Source: Microlunatus elymi (GTDB lineage Bacteria > Actinomycetota > Actinomycetes > Propionibacteriales > Propionibacteriaceae). From it: DNA of 64,000 nt. The DNA is taken from NCBI RefSeq assembly GCF_007362775.1, contig NZ_CP041692.1:806001-870000 (forward strand). The letters are read 5' to 3'. Positions within the stretch are counted from its first letter, which is position 1. The number at the start of each line of letters is the position of its first letter. The notes beneath the pieces were generated by a model. The model was given only the letters and a program-made list of their open reading frames with translations, was not told the DNA's origin and made no database searches. The position numbers and the translations under genes were made by a program. Positions 15,432 through 47,770 of this stretch are shown piece by piece.

Positions 15432-15720
15432 CTACGGGAACGATCGCCGCAACGCCGCCACCATCCAGTCCATGTTCTCGGTGCCGCTGGTCATCGACAC
15501 CCGGGCACCGGAGGAGATCGCGTACCACTCGACCGGGACCTGCAGTTCCTCGGCCAGATCGAGGGCGGCGATCACCCGGCTGCACTCGGCCTGCGACAGC
15601 GCACCCAGCGACTTGGTCGGGTCACCGCACAGCACCACCGGGTGATGCCCTGCGGATGCAGCTCGGTCGGCGTGGAGCAGACAACAGCCGGTCGAAGCGA
15701 GCCGATGAACCGGGTCGGCC
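15432..15720 (-). pseudogene. fragment of an acyl-CoA carboxylase carboxyltransferase gene
   Basis: The minus strand from 15653 to 15432 reads VVLCGDPTKSLGALSQAECS, then RVIAALDLAEELQVPVEWYA, then SGTENMDWMVAALRR, then a stop. This is the conserved core of the fused actinobacterial AccA/AccD-type carboxyltransferase. Immediately upstream in another frame, TPTELHPQGITR is the expected preceding segment, so a one-base frameshift separates the pieces. Only about 90 residues of a protein many hundreds long remain, with no start and a premature end. It is a relic, not a gene. Confidence 0.75.
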
Positions 15721-16432
15721 GAGTGCGGGGTAGTTGATCTTGGTTGTGGTGAGCCCGACGATTGTGGCGACCGGGCGAGAGCGCGGTTCGCGAGAATCCT
15801 GCATCCCAGGAATCGGCTCGCCGTCGCCGCGCACCTGGATCCCACCGGTCCCGACAGGTCGACGACCCGGAGGGGTGAACGGCAGCGACGGCGGGCCGTA
15901 GGTCGGCAGTACCGAGCCGAGGCATCTGCCGACGGCCGAGTCCAATGTTCGCGATGGCCCGACGCCGGCCACAGGTGTGGGATCGGCGCGATCGTTCTAC
16001 GTGGCAAGAGTTCGTCGGCGACGGTCGTCGGGCGGGTGTGCACATCCGAAACTCATCAGTCCTTGAGACCAAGACACAGCGCGCTTGTGCGCAGCGAGGC
16101 TCCGCTCTTGCTGCGCCCCCACTCCCGGCGGTCCGGTTGCATCCCAGTCTCGAACGGTCGGTCGTACCAACTGTCCGCGGACCCTGCTTGCCCGGGCACT
16201 CCGCTGCCCATCTCATTGAGACCATGAATTCCGCGCCCGGCCACGATCGGCTCGCCGGCATGGCTCATTCCTTTGCAGGATGCCGAGCGGCGGCAGATTT
16301 CGAGTGGGCCCGATGGACTGGACCGCTGGCGTCATGGCTTGCCGGCTACGGCCGGATCCGACGTCACGGCCGACTGTGCGCGGCACAGTCGTTGGCTCAG
16401 TGTGCAGGTCACGCCGATGTGGGCTCGGGCCG

Positions 16433-16480
16433 AAGATCATGTCGGCCCAAGATCATGTCGGCCCAAGATCATCTCAGCCC
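16433..16480. repeat. 16-bp tandem triplicate AAGATCATGTCGGCCC
   Basis: Three adjoining copies at 16433-16448, 16449-16464 and 16465-16480. The third differs at two positions (CTCA for GTCG). Non-coding. Confidence 0.85.
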
Positions 16481-16585
16481 CTTGACCGGCAGCGCATCCG
16501 ACACCGGTCGACCTCCGTGGGGAACCGATGAGGGTTCCTAACCGCCCGGTTTGCAAGGCTCGGTCCACGCGATTCCCAAGCTCCG

Positions 16586-16644
16586 TCATCCACAGAAATG
16601 TCCGTTATCCACAAGGAAAAACGTAGTTCGAAGCGCTGTCCACA
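16586..16644 (+). promoter_or_regulatory. cluster of three DnaA-box-like sites before the pilin gene
   Basis: TCATCCACA (16586-16594), exact TTATCCACA (16605-16613) and CTGTCCACA (16636-16644), all in one orientation, lie about 90-150 bp upstream of the small pilin gene. The first and third differ by one base from TTATCCACA or TTGTCCACA. Confidence 0.55.
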
Positions 16645-16733
16645 GGGGTGAACACTTCGTCCCAAAAAGTCACAAGCTTCAGATGTAAGGCAGGCACGGC
16701 ATCACCGGATGCCATCTACACAGAGGAGCTGAC

Positions 16734-30662: not shown

Positions 30663-31535
30663 ATGACGATGACCAAGCAACCGGTCGAGCTGCCGCAACC
30701 GGGGATCGCGGGCGAGACCCGGCCGGTGACACCGCGACGGCTGCAGACGAACAACGTCAGCCTCGGCTACGGCGGCCGGCAGATCGTGTCCGACCTTTCG
30801 CTGCAGGTGCCAACCGGGCAGGTGTCGGTGATCATCGGTGCCAACGGCTGCGGCAAGTCCACCCTGCTGCGCGGGATGGCACGGCTGCTGACCCCGGCCG
30901 GCGGCGCGGTGCTGCTGGACGGCAAGAACGTACATTCCATGCCCAGCAAGGAAGTCGCCAAGATCATGGGGCTGCTGCCGCAGTCGCCGAACGCACCCGA
31001 GGGCATCACCGTTGCCGACCTGGTCGGTCGCGGCCGTTACCCCCACCAAGGCTGGTTCCGGCAGTGGACCGCCGACGACGATCGTGCCGTCACCGCGGCG
31101 CTGATCGCGACCGACACCCTCGCGCTGGCCGATCGGCCGATCGACGAGATGAGCGGCGGGCAGCGGCAGCGGGTGTGGATCGCGATGGCGCTGGCGCAGG
31201 AGACCGATGTGCTGCTGCTGGACGAACCCACCACGTTCCTTGACCTTGCACATCAGCTCGAGGTGCTCGACCTGCTGACCGATCTGAATCGCCGTCGGGG
31301 CACGACCATCGTGGTGGTGATGCACGATCTCAACCTGGCGTGTCGGTACGCGGATCATCTGGTTGCGATGTGCGACGGTCAGGTGATCTCCAGCGGTACG
31401 CCGCGCGAAGTGATCACCGCCGAGTTGATGCGCGACGTGTTCGGGCTGTCCGCCACCGTGATCGACGACCCCGTCTCCCACACCCCGACCATCATCCCGA
31501 TCGGCCGCCACCACTGCGACGACCTCACCCCCTGA
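30663..31535 (+). CDS. iron-siderophore ABC transporter ATPase (FepC-like)
   Basis: 290 aa cytosolic ATPase. Walker A GANGCGKST, signature MSGGQRQRVWIAMAL, Walker B VLLLDEPTTFLD, and switch His in VVVMHDLN. It begins 7 nt after the FepG-like stop, completing the importer operon controlled by the iron box. The C-terminal extension ends in a His-containing run (IGRHHCDD). Downstream is a repeat-rich spacer. Confidence 0.94.
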   Translation: MTMTKQPVELPQPGIAGETRPVTPRRLQTNNVSLGYGGRQIVSDLSLQVPTGQVSVIIGANGCGKSTLLRGMARLLTPAGGAVLLDGKNVHSMPSKEVAKIMGLLPQSPNAPEGITVADLVGRGRYPHQGWFRQWTADDDRAVTAALIATDTLALADRPIDEMSGGQRQRVWIAMALAQETDVLLLDEPTTFLDLAHQLEVLDLLTDLNRRRGTTIVVVMHDLNLACRYADHLVAMCDGQVISSGTPREVITAELMRDVFGLSATVIDDPVSHTPTIIPIGRHHCDDLTP

Positions 31536-31566
31536 GCGCCGCCTCCCCGTACCCCCTCGCCACGCG

Positions 31567-31702
31567 CCCACCCAAAGTCGTGACGACGCGAGTTGTGGTG
31601 GTTCCGGGGGTGTCGGCCGAGTCCAGAAGTCGTGACAACGCGACTTTGGGTGGCCGAGTCGGCGCATTTCCCAGCCCGAACTCAAGTTGTCGCGACTTTG
31701 GT
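31567..31702. repeat. three copies of the AAGTCG-GACAACGCGACTT palindromic repeat family
   Basis: Copy 1 around 31567-31600 (CCACCCAAAGTCGTGACGAC then GCGAG), copy 2 at about 31627-31652 (AAGTCGTGACAACGCGACTT then TGGGTGG) and copy 3 at about 31679-31705 in a variant form (CAAGTTGTCGCGACTTTGG). Copy 1 starts CCACCCAAAGTCG and copy 2 ends CGACTTTGGGTGG, so together they form an inverted pair. The same core makes the 52-bp tandem array at 47.6 kb. Confidence 0.75.
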
Positions 31703-31742
31703 CGGGGCGTCCCTGGGGTCGGTGGAGGGACGTTGGGTTCGT

Positions 31743-31775
31743 CGGGTCGCCCGGTCGCCCGGTCGCCCGGTCGGC
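31743..31775. repeat. 8-bp microsatellite CGGTCGCC
   Basis: GGTCGCCC-type octamer repeated about 3.5 times in tandem, in non-coding DNA. Confidence 0.8.
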
Positions 31776-31931
31776 CTGGGCGTCGCAATCGCAGGAGGTC
31801 GTGCACCCATATGCGCGCCCGGAAAGCCCGTACCTCCTTGGATAGTTCCTGGATTTTCGCGACGTGCTGTGCCGTGAGGTGCCAGCGAACTGAGCGCTCG
31901 GATAGAACCGCGGCCACCGACCGCCGAGTCG

Positions 31932-31950
31932 CACTACGATCTGGGTAGGA
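31932..31950 (+). promoter_or_regulatory. BlaI-type operator upstream of blaI
   Basis: CACTAC-N7-GTAGGA, the same layout as the two better copies TACTAC-N7-GTAGTA at the PAP2 promoter, with two mismatches. It is centred about 65 bp before the blaI start, which suits autorepression. Confidence 0.55.
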
Positions 31951-32006
31951 GACGTCCGGCTGCTTGTGTGCAGGCAGCAGCAAAGCCAACCGGTGGAGGA
32001 GCTGAG

Positions 32007-32378
32007 GTGCGGTCACGACGCCGATCCCGCGGCGGCCTGGAAGAGGCGGTCGTGGAGGTGCTCAGCAAGGCCAAGCGGCCGATGACCACGGCCGAGGTGC
32101 GCGAAGCGCTCGGCGGGGACCTCGCCTACACCACCGTGATGACCGTACTTGCCCGGCTGCACGGCAAGTCCGCGGTGACCCGTCAGGCCGAGGGCCGCGG
32201 CTATGCGTACGCAGCGATCCGCGACCCGGCCGAGCGGACCGCTCGTCGGATGCAGCATCTGCTCGCCGGCGATGCCGACTCGGCGACCGTGCTGACCCGG
32301 TTCGTCGACAACCTGAGCCCCGCCGACGAAGCAACTCTGCGCGCCCTGCTCGAGGTCGATCGGCCCTCCGCACCATGA
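32007..32378 (+). CDS. BlaI/MecI-family transcriptional repressor
   Basis: 123 aa winged-helix repressor. LEEAVVEVLSKAKRPMTTAEVREAL, TTVMTVLARLHGKSAVTRQ and GRGYAYAAI match the DNA-binding domain; the short C-terminal helices would dimerise. In this family a membrane metalloprotease triggers repressor cleavage when cell-wall stress is sensed. GTG 32007 has GGAGG upstream. The next gene but one is such a protease, reached through a short repeat-encoded frame that overlaps this stop by ATGA. Confidence 0.92.
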   Translation: MRSRRRSRGGLEEAVVEVLSKAKRPMTTAEVREALGGDLAYTTVMTVLARLHGKSAVTRQAEGRGYAYAAIRDPAERTARRMQHLLAGDADSATVLTRFVDNLSPADEATLRALLEVDRPSAP

Positions 32379-32477
32379 TCGCGCCCCGCACGATGTTCAC
32401 GCCCCGCACGATGTTCACGCCCCGCACCATGTTCACGCCCCGCACCATGTTCACGCCCCGCACCATGTTCACGCCCG
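32371..32477. repeat. 18-bp minisatellite CACCATGTTCACGCCCCG, six units
   Basis: Units at 32371, 32389, 32407, 32425, 32443 and 32461. The first differs (ATGATCGCG for ATGTTCACG) and the last lacks one C. Units 2 and 3 have CACG where 4-6 have CACC. It fills the whole gap between blaI and the M56 gene. Confidence 0.95.
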
Positions 32478-32482
32478 CATGA
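32375..32482 (+). CDS. 35-codon repeat-encoded frame bridging blaI and the M56 gene
   Basis: ATG 32375 overlaps the blaI stop (ATGA). The frame reads MIAPRT, then MFTPRT four times, then MFTPA, and stops at TGA 32480-32482, which overlaps the M56 ATG at 32479 (again ATGA). Each 18-bp unit equals six codons, so unit number does not change frame; the missing C in the last unit creates the stop. It may be a translational bridge or a chance by-product. No SD is seen within it, and a stable product is doubtful. Confidence 0.4.
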   Translation: MIAPRTMFTPRTMFTPRTMFTPRTMFTPRTMFTPA

Positions 32483-33543
32483 TGATCGCGGGCGCGGCCG
32501 CTGCCTTGCTGGCGCTGCTGGTCTTCGCCGGCGTCGCCCCGGTTCTCGGTCGCCGCATCCAGGCCTGGCAGGCGACCGGCATCCTGGTTCTGGGCAGCGT
32601 CCTGGCCGCCGGCTCGGCGATCCTGGTGCTCGGCGTACTCGCCTCCACCTGGCTCGGCGAGCTGACCTGGGTGCGGGCGATCGTGCCGTGGTCGGAGCGG
32701 ACGTTGACCCTGACCAATCCGGTTCCGGTGCAGATCGGTATGGCCAGTACGGGGATCCTGACGTTCTTCCTGCTGGCCGGTGGGTACGTGGCCGTCCGCC
32801 GGATCTGCCGCCAGGTGGCGTTGCTGCGTGCTGCTCCGACCGGCCGGGTCGGCACGGATGCCTGGGCCGGGATGCTGCCGCCCTCGTCCAGCGCCACCGA
32901 CCTGACGTCCAGGACGGAGCAGGCGGCCCTGCTCGATCGGGCGGTGTTGCTGGACGACCCGGTGCCGGACGCCTTCAGCCTGCCGAAGCCGGTCGACCGG
33001 ATCTTCCTCACCAACGCGATGGTGAACCGGTTGAATCCGGCGGAGCGGGAGATCGTGTTACTGCACGAGCGCGCCCATCTGCGCTATCACCACGGCTGGC
33101 TGCGGCTGGCTGCCCAACTCGCGGCCGATTTCGTACCGGTCCTGCGGCCCGCCGCGACGGCCGCCAGAGCAGCCACCGAACGATGGGCCGACGAGTATGC
33201 CGCCCGCCGGATCGGAGATCGCCGCGCGGTCGCGCTCGCGATCGCCCGAGTCGGTCTGCTCCATCCCTCGACTCAGTCCGACGTGCCGGCAGGTGTCCGG
33301 TCCGCGGCCGGCGACGGCGAGGTGCCCCGTCGGGTCCGAGCTCTGCTCGCACCGGCACCCGTTGCGCGTACGGGATTGGCGGGCATCCTGGTCGCCTTGC
33401 TGTTGACCGCCGGTGTCTCCAGCGCGATGGTGGCGTTGACCGGCGAGGACCTGTTCGAGGATGCGACGCCGGCGGCGCCGACCACCGTCGTCACTGTCCC
33501 CGGGGCACTGCCGCATCAGCAGGCGCACGTCCGTCAGCGGTGA
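32479..33543 (+). CDS. M56-family membrane metallopeptidase (BlaR1-like)
   Basis: 354 aa. Membrane helices at about 4-22, 33-58 and 88-108 and a C-terminal one near 300-318. The zinc protease motif LLHERAHLRYHHG gives H196-E197-H200, preceded by AFSLPKPVDRIFLTNAM as in M56 peptidases, with a downstream ERWADEYAARR that could supply the third ligand. It lacks a penicillin-binding sensor domain, having only about 35 residues after the last helix. It probably inactivates the BlaI repressor in response to an unidentified envelope signal (inference). Confidence 0.88.
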   Translation: MMIAGAAAALLALLVFAGVAPVLGRRIQAWQATGILVLGSVLAAGSAILVLGVLASTWLGELTWVRAIVPWSERTLTLTNPVPVQIGMASTGILTFFLLAGGYVAVRRICRQVALLRAAPTGRVGTDAWAGMLPPSSSATDLTSRTEQAALLDRAVLLDDPVPDAFSLPKPVDRIFLTNAMVNRLNPAEREIVLLHERAHLRYHHGWLRLAAQLAADFVPVLRPAATAARAATERWADEYAARRIGDRRAVALAIARVGLLHPSTQSDVPAGVRSAAGDGEVPRRVRALLAPAPVARTGLAGILVALLLTAGVSSAMVALTGEDLFEDATPAAPTTVVTVPGALPHQQAHVRQR

Positions 33544-47582: not shown

Positions 47583-47770
47583 AAGTCCGCGACAACGCGC
47601 TTCTGGTGGGTGCCGGGGTCGGTCGGATCGCTCGAAGTCGCGACAACGCGGCTTCTGGTGGGTGTCGGGGTCGGTTGGACCGCTCGAAGTCGCGACAACA
47701 CGACTTCGGGTGGGTGTCGGGGTCGGTTGGATCGCTCGAAGTCGCGACAACACGACTTCGGGTGGGCGGG
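47583..47770. repeat. 52-bp tandem array, four units
   Basis: Units start at 47583, 47635, 47687 and 47739 (last one partial). Each begins AAGTC(G)CGACAAC(A/G)CG(A/G)CTTC, continues GGTGGGTGTCGGGGTCGGTT and ends GGATCGCTCG. Units 3 and 4 are identical over their shared part; unit 1 is the most diverged. It lies between the TetR stop and holB. The core equals the repeat at 31.6 kb. Confidence 0.92.

Follow-up and report, generated by a model that had tools for sequence, protein, structure and literature searches.

The 100 nt that separate the stop codon of a blaI-like repressor gene from the start of a downstream metalloprotease gene (hereafter M56) in Microlunatus elymi consist almost wholly of an 18-bp minisatellite. 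A small open reading frame within this array overlaps both of its neighbors by 4 nt (Table 1). We favor the view, with a probability of roughly 0.55, that this is a tolerated and mostly neutral minisatellite that was born in a gene overlap and whose ORF relays ribosomes by termination-reinitiation. Positions are those of the window, that is, the whole 64,000-nt stretch of DNA that was analysed.

Table 1. Features of the blaI-M56 junction, with positions in the window.
Feature	Position	Strand	Basis
blaI-like repressor gene, stop TGA 32376-32378	32007..32378	+	Pfam Penicillinase_R E 9.9e-20 (ORF from 31968)
Copy 1, CTCCGCACCATGATCGCG, ancestral in appearance: end of blaI together with the presumed former M56 start	32366..32383	+	15/18 bases match unit
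18-bp minisatellite, consensus CCGCACCATGTTCACGCC	32368..32476	+	TRF score 190; 30 shuffles, max 88
35-codon ORF MIAPRT(MFTPRT)4MFTPA-stop, candidate ribosome relay	32375..32482	+	Translation; 4-nt overlaps with blaI stop and M56 start
M48/M56-type metalloprotease gene, 354 aa, HERAH motif	32479..33543	+	Pfam M48 E 6.6e-8; ATG 32479 and 32482

The sequence-only reading that preceded this work had described a six-unit array filling the gap between the two genes, in agreement with the 6.1 copies (95% matches) that TRF reported at this site. The array is beyond chance: the best score in the 30 dinucleotide shuffles of the window fell far short of that of the real array, and across all of them a single array scored at least 80. 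The units are, in order, ATGATCGCGCCCCGCACG, ATGTTCACGCCCCGCACG, three copies of ATGTTCACGCCCCGCACC and a final unit shortened to ATGTTCACGCCCGC. The only difference in unit length is in this last unit, which carries CCC (32474-32476) while the others carry CCCC, so the loss of one C had been read correctly. One sequence had also been said to recur at both ends of the array, and ATGATCGCG is indeed present at 32375-32383 and again at 32482-32490.

The array ORF begins at ATG 32375 and runs for 35 codons to TGA 32480-32482. Its start codon and the blaI stop together form ATGA, a 4-nt overlap, and the array frame therefore does open on the blaI stop as claimed. Its other end had been placed on the ATGA of the M56 start. 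The TGA does overlap ATG 32479 by 4 nt (ATGA), but the protease gene has two candidate start codons rather than one, and the second, ATG 32482, is overlapped by 1 nt (TGATG); both are in the M56 frame. Overlapping stop and start codons, a feature of termination-reinitiation pairs, are found at both ends of the ORF. The array had further been said to read as MFTPRT units; four units do so, but the array ORF opens with MIAPRT and closes with a truncated MFTPA. No Shine-Dalgarno-like bases precede the array ORF start or either M56 start, and a Pfam search with the 35-aa array peptide gave no match at E 1.

The array has no stop codon in any of the three forward frames, nor in two of the three reverse frames, so the open frame of the ORF is no evidence of coding. 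The internal units differ from one another by a single ACG-to-ACC change, which is silent when read as MFTPRT and would count as weak evidence for that frame. Changes in unit number would keep the frame, as had been pointed out for the 18-bp unit, but this is a mere consequence of a stop-free unit of that length. Given 18-bp units and an ancestral ATGA overlap, three phases are possible: the array is fused to M56, it ends on ATGA (the present state) or it runs past the M56 gene to 33698. With three phases available, the prior chance that such an array shows the double ATGA is about one in three.

The product of the upstream gene has a Penicillinase_R domain above the Pfam cut-off, and its only NCBIfam match was CopY_TcrY, far below the cut-off of that model. 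The probable start of blaI is GTG 32007, which lies behind GGAGGAG Shine-Dalgarno-like bases; alternative starts were 31968 from the ORF tool and 32052 from a crude codon-usage gene caller. The protease, with HERAH as its HExxH motif, scored 33 bits against Pfam M48 (cut-off 20.3) and 28.6 bits against Pfam M56 (E 1e-6, below the cut-off of 31), and it gave no NCBIfam match at E 0.001. The arrangement had been called unusual for a BlaI/BlaR1 pair, but this name does not fit. BlaR1 sensor-transducers carry an extracellular penicillin-binding sensor domain, and no such domain was found among the Pfam matches of the protease at E 0.001. With no sensor domain found in the protease, the two genes do not make up a typical BlaI/BlaR1 pair. 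A sigma-70 consensus scan, which does not extend to other promoter types, found no promoter-like or terminator-like sites in 31540-32600, and Rfam gave nothing at E 1 within 31500-32600. Upstream of blaI, CACTACGATCTGGGTAGG at 31932-31949 has CTAC...GTAG arms, which makes it a possible BlaI operator.

The array unit looks like an amplified copy of the blaI-M56 junction. While CTCCGCACCATGATCGCG shares 15 of its 18 bases with the unit, the best match elsewhere outside the array, on the + strand of the window, has 13. When the whole genome (5.12 Mb) was searched with the unit, 22 matches were obtained; the five with 0-1 mismatch all lie inside the array, and those with 3 mismatches comprise the junction copy and 16 places elsewhere, as compared to 3 matches for a reversed control pattern. 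An earlier suggestion that the array came from a duplicated M56 start thus appears right in deriving it from the junction, but the matching copy spans the blaI end plus the M56 start and not the latter alone. The protease N-terminus, MIAG..., is similar to that of relatives starting at the overlap, and MIAG from ATG 32482 looks like the old M56 start.

To identify related junctions, we used matches to the M56 protein at E 0.001, which were found in 14 of 57 near relatives, 52 of 391 genomes of the order and 151 of 394 genomes of the class; these counts include the window's own genome and overlap one another. A named genome collection yielded five M56 loci, and a plasmid collection yielded four Streptomyces records, each a partial query match at 66-73% identity. 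No close M56 relative was found among near relatives, order and class, where the best partial identity to another genome was 50-51%. Only the best M56 matches were made into loci, and the 77 loci outside the own genome gave 74 distinct M56 ORFs. A same-strand blaI adjoins 71 of these ORFs; the other 3 have none.

The commonest state of these 71 pairs is the 4-nt ATGA/GTGA overlap (37 pairs), and 31 pairs have a gap of 0-20 nt. The remainder are one 1-nt overlap, one other overlap and one longer gap, in a locus (L051) whose start is uncertain. Among the 37 pairs with the 4-nt overlap, a simple pattern detects Shine-Dalgarno-like bases in 18 and none in 19. In many relatives the M56 ORF can have its start directly at the blaI stop, giving a short N-terminus and no extension. 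An array spanning the blaI stop occurred in 0/71 pairs (TRF score at least 50, from -60 to +160 of the stop). As the junction copy matches the unit closely, overlaps are common in relatives and arrays are absent from them, the array appears to have expanded locally, within a gene overlap present in the ancestor. The nearest approach to such an array is in L123, where a weak 18-bp repeat (2.3 copies, score 52) extends from just past the stop across the M56 start; in L112 a repeat lies inside the blaI 3' tail, and L116, L122 and L128 have weak repeats deeper inside M56. Separately, L039 has an 18-bp repeat of 3.0 copies (1055-1105) in its blaI 3' tail, shortly before an intact M56 ATGA overlap.

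These data suggest a possible course of events. The ancestral state would have been a blaI-M56 junction with a 4-nt ATGA overlap; because 31/71 relatives have short gaps, this overlap is not universal and we only infer it for the ancestor. A local tandem duplication would then have taken in some 18 bp, from the end of blaI to the start of M56, and slippage may have expanded it to six units. With the blaI stop retained in the first copy and the M56 start in the downstream flank, both proteins would have remained intact. Because the last unit is short by one C, the array is read in another frame than M56, and the ORF therefore ends on the M56 start.

It is plausible that the array ORF couples the two genes. 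Ribosomes ending blaI would probably reinitiate at ATG 32375, translate 35 codons and then reinitiate at ATG 32479 or ATG 32482, and blaI-M56 coupling would thus survive an insertion that otherwise weakens it. In test pairs from E. coli and H. volcanii, a stop-start spacing of about 20-38 nt nearly abolishes reinitiation, which is depicted as happening locally, at the stop codon (PMC10666635, in the part available). Given this steep drop with distance, 100 nt without a relay should weaken coupling. Work cited in the accessible portion of PMC12548453 found spacing up to +25 nt without reduced coupling and little effect of distance. A relay from an upstream ORF (uORF) via AUGA onto a gene without a Shine-Dalgarno sequence was shown for uPPE2-PPE2 (PMC11260477, excerpted text). 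The uPPE2 case also gave a minor product by stop-codon suppression and frameshift (same excerpt), and the relay proposed here therefore need not be pure reinitiation.

We counted 49 arrays with a TRF score of at least 80 in 844 kb of the own genome (the window and 39 further stretches; a 40th was dropped because it overlapped the window). By our reading, the blaI-M56 array alone lies flush with the stop and the start of an apparently intact co-directional pair. Using gene calls from a crude codon-usage caller, called start codons were spanned by 0/49 arrays (5.51 expected) and 19 of the 49 were wholly within genes (35.5 expected). A preference of arrays for gene ends was considered, as 6 of the 25 arrays in the first sample and the window span a stop codon (expected 2.61, p 0.029), but it was not upheld by a second, independent sample (3 of 24, expected 2.70, p 0.53) or in total (9/49, expected 5.28, p 0.069).

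Other repeats were recorded as well. By eye, the first copy of three own-genome arrays (L066 7821-7918, L071 11170-11278 and L090 12997-13051) is a gene 3' end, with the stop codon in the units. We rejected L083 16139-16219 as a second junction array: it suggests one LuxR-like gene in two frames, split by duplications. At this locus (15461-16659), a regulator that is LuxR-like from its translation is apparently split by a 21-bp array and an adjoining duplication. Within the window, a 16-bp array of 3.3 copies, GGCCCAAGATCATGTC, lies outside called genes at 16428-16480. A dispersed palindromic repeat, AAGTCGCGACAACRCGACTT, occurs at 31575-31698 and 47635-47758 of the window in either orientation and often at a spacing of 51-52 bp. 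The own genome has it at 59 places with up to 3 mismatches (1 for a reversed control) in about 21 clusters, one of them directly upstream of blaI. With up to 2 mismatches it was found in 2 of 40 genomes, the own one (54) and one of the same genus, G012 (19).

With 49 arrays in 844 kb, it could be argued that this is simply one more neutral minisatellite, that its ORF is without a role and that M56 is initiated independently in a weakly structured array or is expressed less than formerly. The RNA of the array is less structured than that of shuffles (z +3.28), which makes independent initiation of M56 possible, and with every forward frame open a coding signal is absent. On the other hand, neither ATG 32479 nor ATG 32482 has Shine-Dalgarno-like bases, and in 70 of the 71 relatives' pairs the genes overlap or are at most 20 nt apart, which suggests that closeness matters. 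As for local accessibility, two sites in the array are at the 97th-99th percentile, and the M56 start, at the 80th, is not unusually open. We regard a role-free array as a tentative and somewhat unlikely explanation. Another possibility is that the missing C reflects a sequencing error or an indel private to the strain, and that the usual allele encodes an in-frame N-terminal extension of M56. This would fit the fact that CCC in place of CCCC is the sole unit-length difference and that the frames are one base apart. However, it is improbable, as the genome is a single contig with an estimated completeness of 100% and many relatives' M56 ORFs can start at the overlap without any extension.

The sequence-only reading had also proposed that unit number tunes how many ribosomes reach the protease. 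As a selected device, the array would vary in unit number among cells or strains and set the amount of protease made per repressor; its 18-bp units preserve the frame and are near-identical and thus able to slip. In M. tuberculosis strains, moreover, a longer repeat tract before fpg1 generally goes with more mRNA (PMC2734929, available part). That effect acts on mRNA, however, and the array is absent from all 71 relatives' pairs. Neither a strain nor a close relative with a different number of units was found among near relatives, order and class. Tuning does not follow from a relay either, because a longer ORF should leave the number of ribosomes that finish it unchanged: an extra unit only adds six codons, and reinitiation is local (PMC10666635, in the part available). 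Tuning by unit number is unsupported, and we hold selected tuning to be very improbable. The same low standing applies to a fuller version, in which a minisatellite born in the 4-nt overlap is a self-made relay, its two overlaps stand in series and its slippage governs the ratio of protease to repressor; MIRU-like coupling ORFs would then have a way to arise that needs no mobile element. The most likely explanation remains a mostly neutral array whose ORF passes ribosomes on.

A junction-born relay was not found in the open-access literature searched, which gave MIRU and VNTR work, but parts of the layout are known in kind. MIRU target sites go by the name of DTGA, and at some MIRU loci the number of units differs between strains. 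MIRUs are described as apparently mobile repeats whose ORF is coupled to a gene through -4 spacing, an arrangement likely to limit the damage done by insertion (PMC12548453, in its accessible portion). Some of these actinobacterial elements stand in tandem between the regulatory genes senX3 and regX3, in a region reported to have promoter activity (PMC4213456, partial text), and they occupy 41 places in H37Rv (PMC2734929, available part). The array resembles MIRUs in that its small ORF overlaps the neighboring genes at -4 (ATGA 32375-32378 and 32479-32482). In contrast to MIRUs, which according to these partial texts are 40-100 bp long, seemingly mobile and present at many places, it has an 18-bp unit, occurs in a single spot and is similar to the junction it lies in; it is not part of an interspersed family, its 0-1-mismatch copies being confined to the array.

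The uPPE2-PPE2 pair of M. tuberculosis is similar in having an out-of-frame uORF that ends on AUGA with a gene lacking a Shine-Dalgarno sequence, but its uORF has a Shine-Dalgarno sequence of its own and sits behind a riboswitch, and its coupling was measured (PMC11260477, excerpted text). The blaI-M56 relay, on the other hand, is putative, and its ORF is made of repeat units lying between two genes. Ordinary 4-nt overlapping pairs have the commonest spacing (PMC10666635, in the part available) and represent the presumed ancestral state of the junction, whereas blaI-M56 has two overlaps in series around a 100-nt repeat. VNTR3239 between rnc and fpg1 of M. tuberculosis is likewise an intergenic repeat, in a place where the genes are a few to tens of bases apart in other mycobacteria. 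It differs in that its repeats are complex (37, 26, 18 and 16 bp), begin 40 bp past the stop and have their effect on mRNA (both from the available part of PMC2734929). Read from its letters only, the blaI-M56 junction is a tidy anecdote in a minisatellite-rich genome. It is also a clear example, if only one, of a repeat that looks like its own overlapping junction and was probably derived from it with both overlaps kept, and it offers a natural test of chained reinitiation. If the ORF is translated, coupling can outlast insertion, and MIRU-like relay ORFs could come into being with no transposition involved.
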